Below, piece by piece: positions 20,902-31,176 of a stretch of 47,103 bases of DNA. The position numbers were made by a program, and so were the translations under genes. The DNA comes from Bacillota bacterium. Its GTDB lineage: Bacteria > Bacillota > Dethiobacteria > DTU022 > UBA8154. The stretch spans positions 1 through 47,103 of the forward strand of contig DUNV01000013.1 of the NCBI GenBank assembly GCA_012839215.1, in the 5' to 3' direction. The notes beneath the pieces were generated by a model. That model saw only the letters and a list, made by a program, of their open reading frames with translations. It was not told where the DNA came from and searched no databases. Position 1 is the stretch's first letter. Each line of letters opens with the position of its first letter.

Positions 20902-20947
20902 GAAATTATAGGAAAAGGGTTAATAAGAAAAACTGGGAAGGTTGATT

Positions 20948-21682
20948 ATGCTAATATCAAATTATTTGAACGAAAAAGTTAAAAATGGTACAGTGCATAT
21001 TACCTTAATTGACCCGATGAAACAATCTGCTGATGTTGCAGGTAGGCTGGCACTAACTGCGCAAGAAGTGGGAAGCGATCTTATCCTCGTTGTGGGCATG
21101 GGTGGGCTGACCCAGAAAAATCTTCTGGAGACGGCAAGTGCCATTAAGGAAAAAATATCGATACCTGTGGTTTATTCCCCCGTTGGTGCCGAGGCACTTT
21201 GTTTTTCCTTCGATGCCCTCTTATTTTCCAGTCTTCTCAATGCAAAAAACTGTTCCTTTATCAGTGGTGGACAATCCAAGGCGGCCATTGTTTTAAAAAG
21301 GATGGAAGTCCAGACAATACCTGTTGGGTATTTAATCATTGAACCGGGAATGAAAATAGGGGAAGCGGCGGATCTGGACCTTATTCCCAGGGATAACTAT
21401 TGGATGGCGGCAAGCTATGCCGTGGCAGCCGAACTTTTTGGTATGGAATATATCTATCTGGAAGCCGGTATCAGTGCCGCACAGCCGGTTCCCGCCGGTA
21501 TGATTCGTGCTGTCAAAAAAGAACTTTCAATCCCTCTGATTGTCGGGGGTGGGATCCGAACGGCTGTGGATGCGCGCCGGGTTAGGCAAGCGGGTGCAGA
21601 TGTGGTTGTTACGGGGACAATTATAGAAAATGCTGGTTACCGCGAGAGACTGCGTTCTATCCTCAGCGCTCTAAAAGATTGA
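20948..21682 (+). CDS. Geranylgeranylglyceryl-phosphate synthase family protein
   Basis: A TIM-barrel prenyltransferase of the GGGPS/PcrB family, which joins a polyprenyl diphosphate to sn-glycerol-1-phosphate through an ether bond, the first step of archaeal-type lipids. The start is ATG 20948 (MLISNYLNEK), 7 nt after GGGAAGG. The 244 residues show HITLIDPMKQ (with the metal-binding Asp), YIYLEAGIS, PLIVGGGIRT and AGADVVVTGTIIEN. The IPVGYLIIEPG and AAELFGMEY parts look more like the archaeal/Bacteroidetes group than Bacillus PcrB. It has its own promoter. Chain length and real substrate cannot be read from sequence. The polar head-group partner, glycerol-1-phosphate dehydrogenase, is not in the window. 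Confidence 0.85.
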   Translation: MLISNYLNEKVKNGTVHITLIDPMKQSADVAGRLALTAQEVGSDLILVVGMGGLTQKNLLETASAIKEKISIPVVYSPVGAEALCFSFDALLFSSLLNAKNCSFISGGQSKAAIVLKRMEVQTIPVGYLIIEPGMKIGEAADLDLIPRDNYWMAASYAVAAELFGMEYIYLEAGISAAQPVPAGMIRAVKKELSIPLIVGGGIRTAVDARRVRQAGADVVVTGTIIENAGYRERLRSILSALKD

Positions 21683-26230: not shown

Positions 26231-26953
26231 ATGATCCTTTTTTTGCCTTTAAAAATTCCCAGGTGGTTTTATCTTTTTGGTGTCTTTATTCTTCTGTTGC
26301 CCTTTTTGCTTTTTTTCTATTTCGCCGATCTAAATAGAAGTTGCCCTGCTTCTGCCCTGCTTCCTCTCTCTCACATGGTTATCGGAGTGGATCCCGGGCA
26401 TGGGGGTTACGATCCAGGTGTGGTAATTTCCGAAGATGGGATTATCGAAAAGGATATTGTCCTGGGTATCGGCCTTTGCCTGGAGGAATATCTGCAACAG
26501 GGAGGGGCCAAAGTGGTGATGACCAGAAAGACAGATGCGGATCTACTGGAACTGCCAGCGGCTGGACCCAAAAAGCGTAAGGATATGGACAACAGGCTCG
26601 CCATCCTGGAAAATTCCCGGGTAGATCTACTGGTGAGTGTGCACGCTAATTCCTTCCCGGCAGCAAATTGGCGTGGTGCCCAGACATTTTATCAAAATGG
26701 CAAGGAAAATGGTGAGATTCTAGCCGGCTGCCTACAGTCTGAACTGACCCGGGTTTTGCAGAATACTGATCGTCTGCCACAGGCCGGGGATTTTTTCCTT
26801 CTCAGGGAACTTGGGGCACCGGGGGCGATCGTAGAGGTGGGTTTTCTTTCCAATCGTGAGGAGGCCACACTATTGCTGGATAGCGATTATCAAAAAAAGA
26901 TTGCCTGGGCAATTTATGCAGGAATAATCAGGTATGCCAATCACGAGGGGTAA
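26231..26953 (+). CDS. cwlD: N-acetylmuramoyl-L-alanine amidase, CwlD-like
   Basis: An Amidase_3 zinc enzyme that cleaves the stem peptide from muramic acid. In spore formers CwlD works on cortex peptidoglycan to make muramic-delta-lactam, which is needed for germination. The 240 residues have an N-terminal membrane anchor (residues 11-32) and then the catalytic domain: DPGHGGYDPG, the Glu in IIEKDIVLG, the His in SVHANS and the Glu in VEVGFLSN. Size and layout match CwlD. Placement downstream of the ribosomal cluster is common in Clostridia. Its SD may be masked by the upstream inverted repeat. Confidence 0.85.
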   Translation: MILFLPLKIPRWFYLFGVFILLLPFLLFFYFADLNRSCPASALLPLSHMVIGVDPGHGGYDPGVVISEDGIIEKDIVLGIGLCLEEYLQQGGAKVVMTRKTDADLLELPAAGPKKRKDMDNRLAILENSRVDLLVSVHANSFPAANWRGAQTFYQNGKENGEILAGCLQSELTRVLQNTDRLPQAGDFFLLRELGAPGAIVEVGFLSNREEATLLLDSDYQKKIAWAIYAGIIRYANHEG

Positions 26954-27042: not shown

Positions 27043-28734
27043 TTGGAAAACAGTACGAGGGATGCGTTATGGATTGCCAACTATGAGGAAGGGGTCAGGC
27101 CTTCCCTTAAATATCCTGAAATCCCAGTCCATTATATTCTGGCACGGGCAGCAAGGCGGTTTCCCCAGCGCAATGCAACAAACTTTTTGGGTGCCACACT
27201 TTCGTATCGTGATCTTTTTGCCCAGGTCAACAAAATGGCCGCCGCACTTGCCGGCCTTGGTGTTAAAAAAGGCGAAAGGGTCGGTATTATTTTGCCAAAC
27301 TCCCCACAGGCATTGATTAGCTATTTTGCTATCTTGCAAATTGGTGCCATTGCAGTTTTAATTAACCCCCTTAGCGCCGAGATGGAACTTGTACACATTA
27401 TCAATGATGCCGGCGTCGAAAACTTGATTTTAATCGACTCTGTTTACCGGCGTATTTCTAATATTAAGGATCGGACTAAGATTAAAAATCTAGTGGTGAC
27501 AGGCCTTCATGACTATCTGAACTTTCCTGCCAATCTGTTTTTTTCTCTTCGGAAGCGAAGCAAGGGAACGGCAGCCAATATCTATTATAGGGATGGAATT
27601 TATCGCTTTACACAGTTAATCCGCAATGCTCCTGATAGCCCGCCCGCGGTGGAAATTGATCCCCGTAAGGATGTAGCCATCCTGCAGTATACAGGAGGAG
27701 TCACGGGGACCCTCAAAGGGGCTATGCTGACACATTTCAACCTTGTGGCCAATACGGTCCAGTTCCGGGAGTGGTTTTCTTCTTTAAGGGATGGGGAAGA
27801 ACGTTTCTTGGGCGTTTTGCCCGTTATGCAAATTTATGGGATATCTGTTGTCAACCTGGGCGTTTTTACCGGATCCATGCTCATCCTGCTGACCAGGTTC
27901 GAGGTTGACAGGGTTTTAAAAACGATCAACAAGACACGCCCATCTTTTTTCCCCGGGGTTCCGACAATGTTTGCTGCTATTAACAACTATCCCGATGTGA
28001 GGAAATATAATATTTCTTCCATTGATTATGTAAACTCTGGGGGGGCACCGCTTCCCCCTGAGGTTTGGGAGAAGTTTGAAAAGTTAACCGGTGCGCGCCT
28101 GATGGAGGGCTACGGTCTTGTCGAATCCTCTCCGGTGGCGATTTCCAACCCCGCCAAGGGTAGGAGAAAAATGGGGAGCATCGGGTTGCCTATTTCCGAT
28201 ACGCAGGCAAAAATTGTCAGCCTAGAGGAACCGGAAAGGGAGCTGGGGGTGGGGGAAATTGGTGAACTTGCCATTTCCGGCCCCCAGGTGATGAAAGGCT
28301 ACTGGAACAACCTTGAGGAAACCAACCTTGTCCTCAGGGATGGATGGCTTTATACTGGGGATATTGCCGAGATGGATCGGGATGGCTATTTTTATATTAT
28401 CAATCGCAAAAAGGACATGATCATTATGGGTGGATACAATGTTTTCCCCCGGGAGGTGGAGGAGGTCCTTAGGCGCCATCCCAAGGTCATGGAAGCAGTT
28501 GTCATGGGTATACCCGACGATTATTATGGGGAAGTTGTTAAAGCATATATCTTTCCCCGGGAGGGAAGGGTTATCCTGGAGGATGAACTGCGGGATTACT
28601 GCCTTAACAAGCTGGCCTCGTATAAGATACCCAGACAATTTGAGATCCGCAGGGAGCATCCGGCAAAAGATTTGTCAGGCCCGAGCCTTCGCCGCTATCT
28701 TCTGCGGGAGGGGGACGGGAAGAAAATTAGTTAG
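27043..28734 (+). CDS. Acyl-CoA synthetase (AMP-forming) homologue with altered catalytic motifs
   Basis: An ANL-superfamily adenylate-forming protein most like long-chain acyl-CoA ligases. The start is TTG 27043, 7 nt after AAAGGGGG; 563 residues. The fold is complete, but key positions differ from the family: A3 reads YTGGVTGTLKG (residues 216-226, Val for Thr), A4 is LPVMQIYG (Gln for His), A5 is GYGLVESSP (Val for Thr), and the C-terminal A10 reads SGPSLRRYL with Pro547 in place of the catalytic Lys (codon CCG, 28681-28683). A7 YTGDI and the RKKDMI hinge are retained. Adenylation is therefore doubtful. It heads an operon with the AmmeMemoRadiSam genes 12 nt downstream. Confidence 0.85.
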   Translation: MENSTRDALWIANYEEGVRPSLKYPEIPVHYILARAARRFPQRNATNFLGATLSYRDLFAQVNKMAAALAGLGVKKGERVGIILPNSPQALISYFAILQIGAIAVLINPLSAEMELVHIINDAGVENLILIDSVYRRISNIKDRTKIKNLVVTGLHDYLNFPANLFFSLRKRSKGTAANIYYRDGIYRFTQLIRNAPDSPPAVEIDPRKDVAILQYTGGVTGTLKGAMLTHFNLVANTVQFREWFSSLRDGEERFLGVLPVMQIYGISVVNLGVFTGSMLILLTRFEVDRVLKTINKTRPSFFPGVPTMFAAINNYPDVRKYNISSIDYVNSGGAPLPPEVWEKFEKLTGARLMEGYGLVESSPVAISNPAKGRRKMGSIGLPISDTQAKIVSLEEPERELGVGEIGELAISGPQVMKGYWNNLEETNLVLRDGWLYTGDIAEMDRDGYFYIINRKKDMIIMGGYNVFPREVEEVLRRHPKVMEAVVMGIPDDYYGEVVKAYIFPREGRVILEDELRDYCLNKLASYKIPRQFEIRREHPAKDLSGPSLRRYLLREGDGKKIS

Positions 28735-28746
28735 GGAGATGATCTT

Positions 28747-30081
28747 TTGGGCATTATTGCAGCCGGGGTTGCACCCCACCCGCCCATTATAATCCCTGAG
28801 GTTGGGCGTGGGGAAGAAAAAAAAGCAGTAAAGACGATAAAGGCCATGCAGATATTCGCCGAACGTCTTGCGAAGATAAATGGCGAGACCATAGTTTTTA
28901 TTACTCCGCATGGTCCCATGTACAGGGATGCCCTGGCAATTCTCGGTGAAACCAGGCTAAAGGGCGATTTTGCCGGATTTTATGCTCCGGGCGTGCAACT
29001 TGCGGCGGAAAATGATCGGGAACTTGTCCGCGCCATTGAAAAAGGGAGCCGGGAAACCGGGATCGGGGTTGCCCTGCTTGAAGGGGCAAGTGAATCCGGT
29101 TCCAGTGGGGAGTTTAACCTTGATCATGGTGTTACCGTCCCCCTTTATTTTTTGCAGGAGGCCGGGACTGGCAAGCGCTGCGTCGCCATTACCTATGCAC
29201 CCCTATCCTACCGGGAACTTTACAATTTTGGCAAAGTTATAAAAAAGGCAGCGGAGGAGCTTGGAAGAAGAGTTGTGGTCGTGGCCAGTAGCGATCTTTC
29301 CCACCGGCTTAGCAGGGACTCCCAGGCAGGTTATCATCCCCGGGGCAAAGAATTTGATCGGACGCTAGTGAAGCACCTTGAAGATTACCAGGTCGACAAA
29401 ATATTGACGATGGACATGGATCTAGTCCAGGCTGCCGGGGAGTGTGGGCTGCGTTCCATTGCAGTCATGCTGGGGTGCCTGGATGGGGAGGAGGTAAAAC
29501 CGGAGGTATTATCCTATGAAGGACCTTTTGGCGTTGGCTATGCGGTGGCCCTTTTTACACCGCAAGGAACAGGGGGATCCCTCCATACACATATTGCCCG
29601 CCAGGCTTTGGAAAGCAGTGTCAAGGGGCAGGTACGTTTCCAGGTTCCACCTGATCTCCCGGAAGAATTTCACCAGCCGGGAGCTGTTTTTGTTTCCTTG
29701 AAAAAACATGGTGCCCTGCGGGGTTGTATCGGCACCATTTATCCTTCAGAAAAAACCCTGTTGGAGGAGATTGCTATCAATTCCCTCAATGCCGGCCTGC
29801 GGGATCCCAGATTCCCCCCGGTTACAGAGGCTGAACTGGAAGAACTGGAATATAGTGTCGATGTGTTGACGGAACCGGAAAAGGTGGAAAGTATTGCCCA
29901 GCTCGATCCCAAGGTTTACGGTGTCATTGTTCGCAGTGGCGAACGAAGCGGGGTGTTGCTCCCCGCGCTCGAGGGGGTTGATTCCGTTGAGCTGCAACTG
30001 GATATCACCAGGAGGAAGGCTGGGATCGGCCCGCACGAGGATGTGGAAATCTTCCGTTTCAGGGTTAACCGGTTTTACTAG
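28747..30081 (+). CDS. AmmeMemoRadiSam system fusion: MEMO1-like (B) plus AMMECR1 (A)
   Basis: A 444-residue fusion of two widely conserved but functionally obscure proteins. Residues 1-270 are a MEMO1 / class III extradiol dioxygenase-like domain, with VAPHPPIIIPEVG, TPHGP (55), NLDHGV (124-129) and SSDLSHR (181-187) as likely metal or active-site segments. Residues 275-444 are AMMECR1, with its hallmark LRGCIGT (324-330) and RDPRFPPV. It starts at TTG 28747 after AGGGAGA. The next gene is the radical SAM member of the same system, so the whole three-part system is present in two genes. Confidence 0.92.
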   Translation: MGIIAAGVAPHPPIIIPEVGRGEEKKAVKTIKAMQIFAERLAKINGETIVFITPHGPMYRDALAILGETRLKGDFAGFYAPGVQLAAENDRELVRAIEKGSRETGIGVALLEGASESGSSGEFNLDHGVTVPLYFLQEAGTGKRCVAITYAPLSYRELYNFGKVIKKAAEELGRRVVVVASSDLSHRLSRDSQAGYHPRGKEFDRTLVKHLEDYQVDKILTMDMDLVQAAGECGLRSIAVMLGCLDGEEVKPEVLSYEGPFGVGYAVALFTPQGTGGSLHTHIARQALESSVKGQVRFQVPPDLPEEFHQPGAVFVSLKKHGALRGCIGTIYPSEKTLLEEIAINSLNAGLRDPRFPPVTEAELEELEYSVDVLTEPEKVESIAQLDPKVYGVIVRSGERSGVLLPALEGVDSVELQLDITRRKAGIGPHEDVEIFRFRVNRFY

Positions 30082-30135: not shown

Positions 30136-31176
30136 ATGCCTGAAAAAGAAGCGCTCTATTATCGCCGGGAAGGCGAGGATATTTACTGTACTCTTTGCCC
30201 CCACGGCTGCCGGATTAGAGATGGGCAGAAGGGGGTCTGCGGTGTGCGCCAGGCAAAATCCGGTAAGTTGATAACTCTTAACTATGCACGCTGTGCCTCG
30301 ATGGCCATGGATCCTATCGAAAAAAAGCCTCTTTATCATTTCTATCCGGGATGGGAGATCCTTTCGGTTGGTACTTTCGGCTGCAACCTGCATTGCGCCT
30401 TCTGCCAGAACTGGACTTTGGCACGGGGAGAAGACATGGACGCCCCGGGGTGGAAGGAAATCGGGCCCGAAATGTTTCCGGATATACTAAAGGGCCGCCC
30501 CCGGAAGGAACAGCTCGGAGTGGCCTATACCTACAACGAACCGGGAATCTGGTACGAATTTGTCCTTGATACAGCGGGGCTCCTGGCCGGAAAGGGGTTT
30601 AAAAATGTCCTGGTGACCAATGGCCATATTAACCCCGAACCGCTGGAGGAGCTTCTTCCTTTTATCGATGCCGCGAATATAGATGTCAAGGCTTTCAATG
30701 ACAATTTCTACCGGCGTTATTGCCGTGGCAGGGGGCTGGGGGAAGTGCTCCGCACGGTGGAGAAGGCCCATACGAGGTGCCATGTTGAACTGACCTACCT
30801 CGTTATTAATACCCTTAACGATAACCCGGATGAAATCAGCGAGTTTGTCAGTTGGGTGGCCTCGCTGGATAAAAATATTCCTGTTCACTTTAGCCGTTAT
30901 TTCCCCAATTATCACCTCGATATTCCTCCCACATCACTGACTACCATGCAAGAGGTTTGGGAGATCGCCACACAAAAACTTTCCTACGTTTACCTCGGCA
31001 ATATTAGGGATGATGAATACAGCACCACGTTTTGTCCTTCATGCCGCCGGCCTCTTATTACCCGTGATGGTTACCGCGTTCAAAATGCCGGCCTCGATGG
31101 GAAAAGGTGCGAAAACTGTGGTTATACTATTAATTTGACAGGGCATATTTATGAAGTGGGGGGTAATTGCCCTTAA
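30136..31176 (+). CDS. amrS: AmmeMemoRadiSam system radical SAM enzyme
   Basis: A radical SAM enzyme of 346 residues. The cluster motif CNLHCAFC (Cys83, 87, 90) binds the [4Fe-4S] that cleaves SAM. The N-terminal CTLCPHGCxIxxGxxGxC pattern (18-35) resembles the pyruvate-formate-lyase-activating-enzyme family. The C-terminal CPSC...CENC pair (about 297-334) may form a zinc ribbon or auxiliary site. It is preceded by AAAGGAGGC. The substrate is not established. It is genetically bound to MEMO1 and AMMECR1 in many anaerobes and archaea, as here. Confidence 0.92.
   Translation: MPEKEALYYRREGEDIYCTLCPHGCRIRDGQKGVCGVRQAKSGKLITLNYARCASMAMDPIEKKPLYHFYPGWEILSVGTFGCNLHCAFCQNWTLARGEDMDAPGWKEIGPEMFPDILKGRPRKEQLGVAYTYNEPGIWYEFVLDTAGLLAGKGFKNVLVTNGHINPEPLEELLPFIDAANIDVKAFNDNFYRRYCRGRGLGEVLRTVEKAHTRCHVELTYLVINTLNDNPDEISEFVSWVASLDKNIPVHFSRYFPNYHLDIPPTSLTTMQEVWEIATQKLSYVYLGNIRDDEYSTTFCPSCRRPLITRDGYRVQNAGLDGKRCENCGYTINLTGHIYEVGGNCP

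Follow-up and report, generated by a model that had tools for sequence, protein, structure and literature searches.

A FadD-type acyl-CoA synthetase lineage that has lost the A10 lysine once and lies optionally upstream of the AmmeMemoRadiSam genes

The window analysed here, a stretch of 47,103 nucleotides of contig DUNV01000013.1 from a member of the Bacillota, contains a gene, P0001, whose product is homologous to FadD-type acyl-CoA synthetases and has no lysine at the catalytic A10 position. Our preferred reading, to which we would give a probability of roughly 0.45, is that P0001 belongs to a FadD-type lineage, of beta-oxidation by descent, in which the half of the active site serving adenylation was lost once and the half serving AMP and CoA was kept, and that it does not belong to the AmmeMemoRadiSam system.

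The gene is an uninterrupted open reading frame of 563 amino acids that begins with a TTG start at 27043, preceded by a AAAGGGGG-type ribosome site, and closes with a stop ending at 28734. The intact 563-codon gene described in the initial annotation is thus confirmed. Its product exceeds the gathering scores of both AMP-binding (PF00501, 287 bits against 29.9) and AMP-binding_C (PF13193, 54.6 bits against 24.5). Full-length homology, the two Pfam domains and the predicted fold are shared with the FadD/LcfA long-chain acyl-CoA synthetases (NF005220 and NF004114); however, P0001 falls under both of these NCBIfam cut-offs (530 bits against 1116 and 493 bits against 766), as it does under that of NF004837 (397.9 bits against 476), and the clade to which it belongs has neither the A10 lysine nor the first P-loop threonine nor the A4 phenylalanine of that type. 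Identity to enzymes with normal motifs is 44–53%. The AlphaFold model of P0001 (pLDDT 87) has an acyl-CoA synthetase fold and matches solved CoA ligases over its full length, among them 5bsr, a 4-coumarate:CoA ligase with AMP and CoA (Z 48.4, rmsd 2.3, 511 residues aligned), which we take to be in the thioester-forming conformation. The conformation of the model was considered as a clue to the half-reaction that is retained and was then dropped, since the model of a canonical control, L051, gives the same thioester-like matches (5bsr, 5bst, 3a9v, 4eat and 5x8f), so that the predicted conformation has no discriminating power and says nothing about function.

The gene and its altered motif positions are given below; the A10 position was read from the codon and the alignment column, while the other four residue coordinates were obtained by arithmetic from the start of the reading frame, the residues themselves being aligned.

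27043..28734, + strand: P0001, FadD-type acyl-CoA synthetase homologue without the A10 lysine (open reading frame, Pfam and alignment)
27700..27702, + strand: codon 220, first threonine of the A3 P-loop changed to Val
27829..27831, + strand: codon 263, A4 His changed to Gln
28120..28122, + strand: codon 360, A5 Thr/Ser changed to Val
28402..28404, + strand: codon 454, A8 Asp before RKKD changed to Asn
28681..28683, + strand: codon 547, A10 lysine position, Pro (CCG)

These positions were compared with 106 canonical homologues, a set that includes homologues from 80 named genomes and excludes L046 (the gene of L023), L151 and L153 (the genes of L048 and L049) and L152, a 36–38% paralogue that keeps the GK. 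The A10 column is lysine in 106 of 106 canonical rows and in none of the 12 clade members that cover A10 (8 Ala, 2 Pro, 2 Val), a count taken over 12 and not 13 because L159 is an N-terminal fragment. The proline that the initial annotation had read at 28681 therefore stands, and the lysine is absent throughout the clade, including its members next to Memo. The A3 motif of P0001 reads TGGVTG, and the first P-loop threonine is gone from all 12 members, as opposed to 101 T and 5 S among the canonical rows. At A4, the histidine is kept in 8 of 13 clade members and lost in 5, P0001 with its glutamine among the latter, against 106 of 106 in the canonical set; the neighbouring Phe262 is lost in all 13. 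The residue before RKKD is asparagine in the whole clade (12/12) and D or E in the canonical rows (104 and 2). The substitutions reported earlier at A3, A4 and the hinge are all real. The one reported at A5 is also present, although normal homologues carry T or S there (63 T, 42 S and 1 R), so that A5 is not strictly threonine; the clade has 6 T, 5 A and the single V of P0001, with 6 of 12 members eroded.

Other parts of the active site have been left intact. The A3 lysine, A5 glutamate, A7 aspartate, A8 arginine, hinge Lys457 and the A8 glycines Gly463 and Gly464 are kept in 12 of 12 clade members, and of the 92 canonical positions conserved at 97% or more, 63 are wholly retained in the clade. 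The pattern of residue loss is non-random with respect to chemistry. In a survey of 374 superfamily sequences, the A10 lysine, together with the A5 glutamate, A7 aspartate and A8 arginine, is among five residues that are invariant, and mutation of the P-loop threonine (index 325) hinders activity (PMC6122825); in GrsA, thiolation is supported by an A8 lysine (PMC11253843). A relocated lysine was sought in the clade alignment, and no basic residue gained or conserved clade-wide was found in the C-terminal A10 tail. Basic residues gained clade-wide elsewhere occupy five positions (19, 35, 38, 136 and 208), none of them inside a named motif. Conservation of the A10 tail is lower among clade members (0.58) than in the canonical set (0.68), with every other segment tested being equally or more conserved in the clade. 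This is to be expected of a tail without its catalytic residue, and it also tempers any claim of strong constraint in that segment.

The gene without the A10 lysine was found in 11 of the 23 genomes of the window's family, 60 related genomes having been searched. Ten family relatives are 60–68% identical to P0001, and one further genome (G016) has only an N-terminal fragment. An A10-less synthetase, a MarR gene and a fadN sharing 96% identity with the fadN of G011 are carried by contig G053:C39 (locus L158), which was binned in a different family and is probably misbinned. On a tree of 47 of the 119 rows the A10 loss falls on one branch as one change of state, with an SH-aLRT of 100. Since the loss is both clade-wide and monophyletic, chance and sequencing error are excluded as its cause. 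Within the window's own genome the loss is confined to P0001 among the sequences counted: of 13 matches, leaving out P0001 and four partial or PaaK-like ones, all eight other readable full-length AMP-binding paralogues keep the GK.

The gene is also under strong purifying selection. Pairwise dN/dS is 0.091 for G003 and G012 and 0.083–0.115 for pairs within genus g5, these being the closest pairs, as more distant ones are saturated at silent sites; the values are similar to or lower than those of the closest pairs for Memo/AMMECR1 (0.10–0.20) and for the radical SAM gene (0.09–0.20). Such values argue that the loss of A10 is not decay. It is true that some clade members show further erosion of their motifs and that the branch leading to P0001 is long (0.38 on the 47-row tree), both of which would suit a decaying pseudogene or an error in the sequence; however, no internal stop is present in the nine full-length family relatives, dN/dS is about 0.09 and the same A10 loss recurs in every member, and this explanation, which we regard as scarcely credible, was discarded. 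As to the earlier preference for selection over decay, selection for some role is borne out by the same figures.

The genes on either side of P0001 are as follows.

26231..26953, + strand: CwlD-like N-acetylmuramoyl-L-alanine amidase, upstream backbone gene (TIGR02883, 206 bits, under the cut-off of 221.55)
28747..30081, + strand: Memo/AMMECR1 fusion (AmmeMemoRadiSam proteins B and A), a neighbour not judged to share the function of P0001 (TIGR04335, 135.5 against a cut-off of 99; TIGR04336, 44.9 against 26)
30136..31176, + strand: AmmeMemoRadiSam radical SAM enzyme, a neighbour (TIGR04337, 310 bits against a cut-off of 220)

This arrangement had raised the question of whether P0001 serves the AmmeMemoRadiSam system (TIGR04335, TIGR04336 and TIGR04337) as a dedicated sensor for acyl groups or nucleotides. 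The genes of that system do adjoin P0001 on the same strand, with a gap of 12 bases to Memo in the window, and a recurring neighbourhood does exist inside the family, where in each of the 11 carriers the synthetase gene precedes Memo on the same strand, immediately so in 9 of them. The system, however, occurs with or without the synthetase gene. Of 60 relatives, 57 have Memo and 56 the radical SAM gene, both being present in all 35 good-quality genomes, as against 11 of 23 family genomes with a full or A10-covering synthetase of the clade. Among 21 Memo loci of the family the synthetase gene is present at 11 and absent from 10, the latter including the two remaining genomes of the window's genus. 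The locus tree requires six gains or losses of the synthetase gene, at least five of them on well supported branches, while Memo and the radical SAM gene persist, and in G007 and G011 fad genes intervene between the synthetase and Memo. Membership of the synthetase in the system was rejected on this distribution, and the proposed role as its sensor, largely contradicted by the same counts, is left without support and is very improbable. Beyond the family, neither Memo nor radical SAM genes were found beside canonical homologues in the flanks of 80 named loci, searched up to 6 kb, and of 35 class loci, which often extended only 1.5 kb and several of which cover one gene twice. No paper on the function of AmmeMemoRadiSam was recognised by title or abstract.

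Memo and the radical SAM gene share their backbone, as far as contigs reach, with cwlD, an alanine carrier, dacA, ybbR, glmM and glmS, in families f1, f2, f3 and f5. The neighbourhood is best described as a housekeeping backbone with optional inserts, and the position of the synthetase gene before Memo, AMMECR1 and the radical SAM gene appears to be an insertion site inherited within the family and not a sign of functional membership.

A simpler origin for this position is offered by the beta-oxidation operon that lies between the synthetase gene and Memo in two family genomes. In G011 the intervening genes are MarR, fadN, fadA, fadE, MarR and a metallo-hydrolase (FadE at 883 bits, cut-off 600), and in G007 the order synthetase-MarR-fadN-fadA-fadE-MarR-Memo was read over two contigs that share an exact end of 121 bases. 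The same gene set occurs with an acyl-CoA synthetase in the fadN-fadA-fadE operons of Paenibacillus, Cohnella and others, and in 13 of the 80 named loci a canonical homologue adjoins the three fad genes together; unlike these, the synthetase of the family has no catalytic lysine. By descent, the gene most likely belongs with the acyl-CoA synthetases of beta-oxidation. Of the 23 family genomes only two, G007 and G011, have fadN, so that a pathway accounting for the gene is missing from most carriers, and these include the window's genome, in which fadN gave no match; fad genes are absent at the window locus and at most carrier loci. The basal family member on the locus tree, G004, has the synthetase gene with no fad genes before Memo, so the fad operon could be a later insertion instead of the ancestral state. 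The synthetase gene may either have been left behind by the fad genes or have been joined by them later, and the trees are compatible with both.

As to what the protein does, the changes on the adenylation side fall into those found in all members (the A10 lysine, the first P-loop threonine and the A4 phenylalanine) and those found in some (the A4 histidine and A5 Thr/Ser), and judging by these residues efficient synthesis of an acyl-adenylate from ATP has most likely gone. The residues that would bind AMP (A5 Glu, A7 Asp and A8 Arg) and those that would serve the thioester half (the hinge lysine and the A8 glycines) are retained. With one half dismantled and the other kept, binding of acyl-AMP, or of acyl-CoA together with AMP, is probable, and catalysis would extend at most to the reversible conversion of acyl-AMP and CoA to acyl-CoA and AMP, on substrates that are presumably fatty acyl. 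A tentative extension, possible but by no means the expected outcome, is that the family has fixed a natural half-ligase, which no longer carries out ATP-dependent adenylation and either interconverts acyl-AMP plus CoA and acyl-CoA plus AMP or senses the balance between them.

Loss of the lysine alone is no proof that ligation is lost, since the K487A mutant of Mycobacterium tuberculosis FadD13 keeps about 4% of activity (PMC2793005). P0001 could accordingly be a real acyl-CoA ligase that is slow or restricted in its substrates and adenylates independently of the lysine. The retention of the A3 lysine with the A5, A7 and A8 residues named above is consistent with this, as is the position of the synthetase gene at the head of a fad operon in two genomes, G007 and G011, which both keep the A4 histidine and A5 threonine. 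We nevertheless find it doubtful, because three adenylation residues are gone in every member and the tail offers no conserved basic residue as a substitute, because further erosion of A4 and A5 is limited to members, the window's among them, whose loci carry no fad genes, and because G011, where the fad operon is intact, encodes two further acyl-CoA synthetases whose A10 is normal. It is unlikely, too, that P0001 is a non-catalytic regulatory or partner protein that binds acyl-CoA or AMP independently of AmmeMemoRadiSam. Strong constraint in spite of the lost catalytic residues would suit such a role, and MarR-type genes stand on either side of the fad genes of G007 and G011 and next to Memo in relatives, but an invariant hinge lysine and A8 glycines, which belong to the CoA half-reaction, exceed the needs of binding alone.

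A whole family in which the A10 lysine was lost a single time, and in which the gene has stayed under strong selection, offers a natural experiment on which of the two steps of the ligase reaction is dispensable to a cell. If the half-ligase proposal is true, the clade would represent in nature what A10-lysine mutants are in the laboratory. Such engineered proteins, PrpE mutants and FadD13 K487A (PMC11255334 and PMC2793005), likewise miss this residue from an otherwise complete enzyme, whereas the loss in the clade is natural, fixed in the family and accompanied by further changes on the adenylation side. No naturally A10-less acyl-CoA synthetase was recognised in a literature search by titles and abstracts. 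Annotating this gene as FadD would imply an activity that it probably lacks or has only weakly.

Several features of the surrounding region were observed in addition. Memo and AMMECR1 form a single stretch in the window (28747–30081) and in G008, G011, G019 and G021, and two open reading frames in most other family genomes (loci L131–L146), which suggests repeated fusion or fission. The stretch before the synthetase gene or before Memo is an insertion hot spot (L035, 800–10400; L139, 1100–11050; L037, 3896–7501), and its open reading frames in other family genomes, read by eye, include peptide-ABC transporter, LemA/HtpX-like and phosphodiesterase-like genes or an open reading frame of 1201 amino acids. 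MarR-type regulators adjoin Memo in families f2 and f3 (L142, 1388–4087; L148, 10149–10598; L150, 8224–8694), and family f2 has genes for an enoyl-CoA hydratase and for an HD-domain protein between cwlD and Memo; the Memo site seems to collect fatty-acid genes. Further upstream in the window, at 20942–21682, is a PcrB-like gene, presumably geranylgeranylglyceryl phosphate synthase-like, which is a conserved backbone gene of the order.
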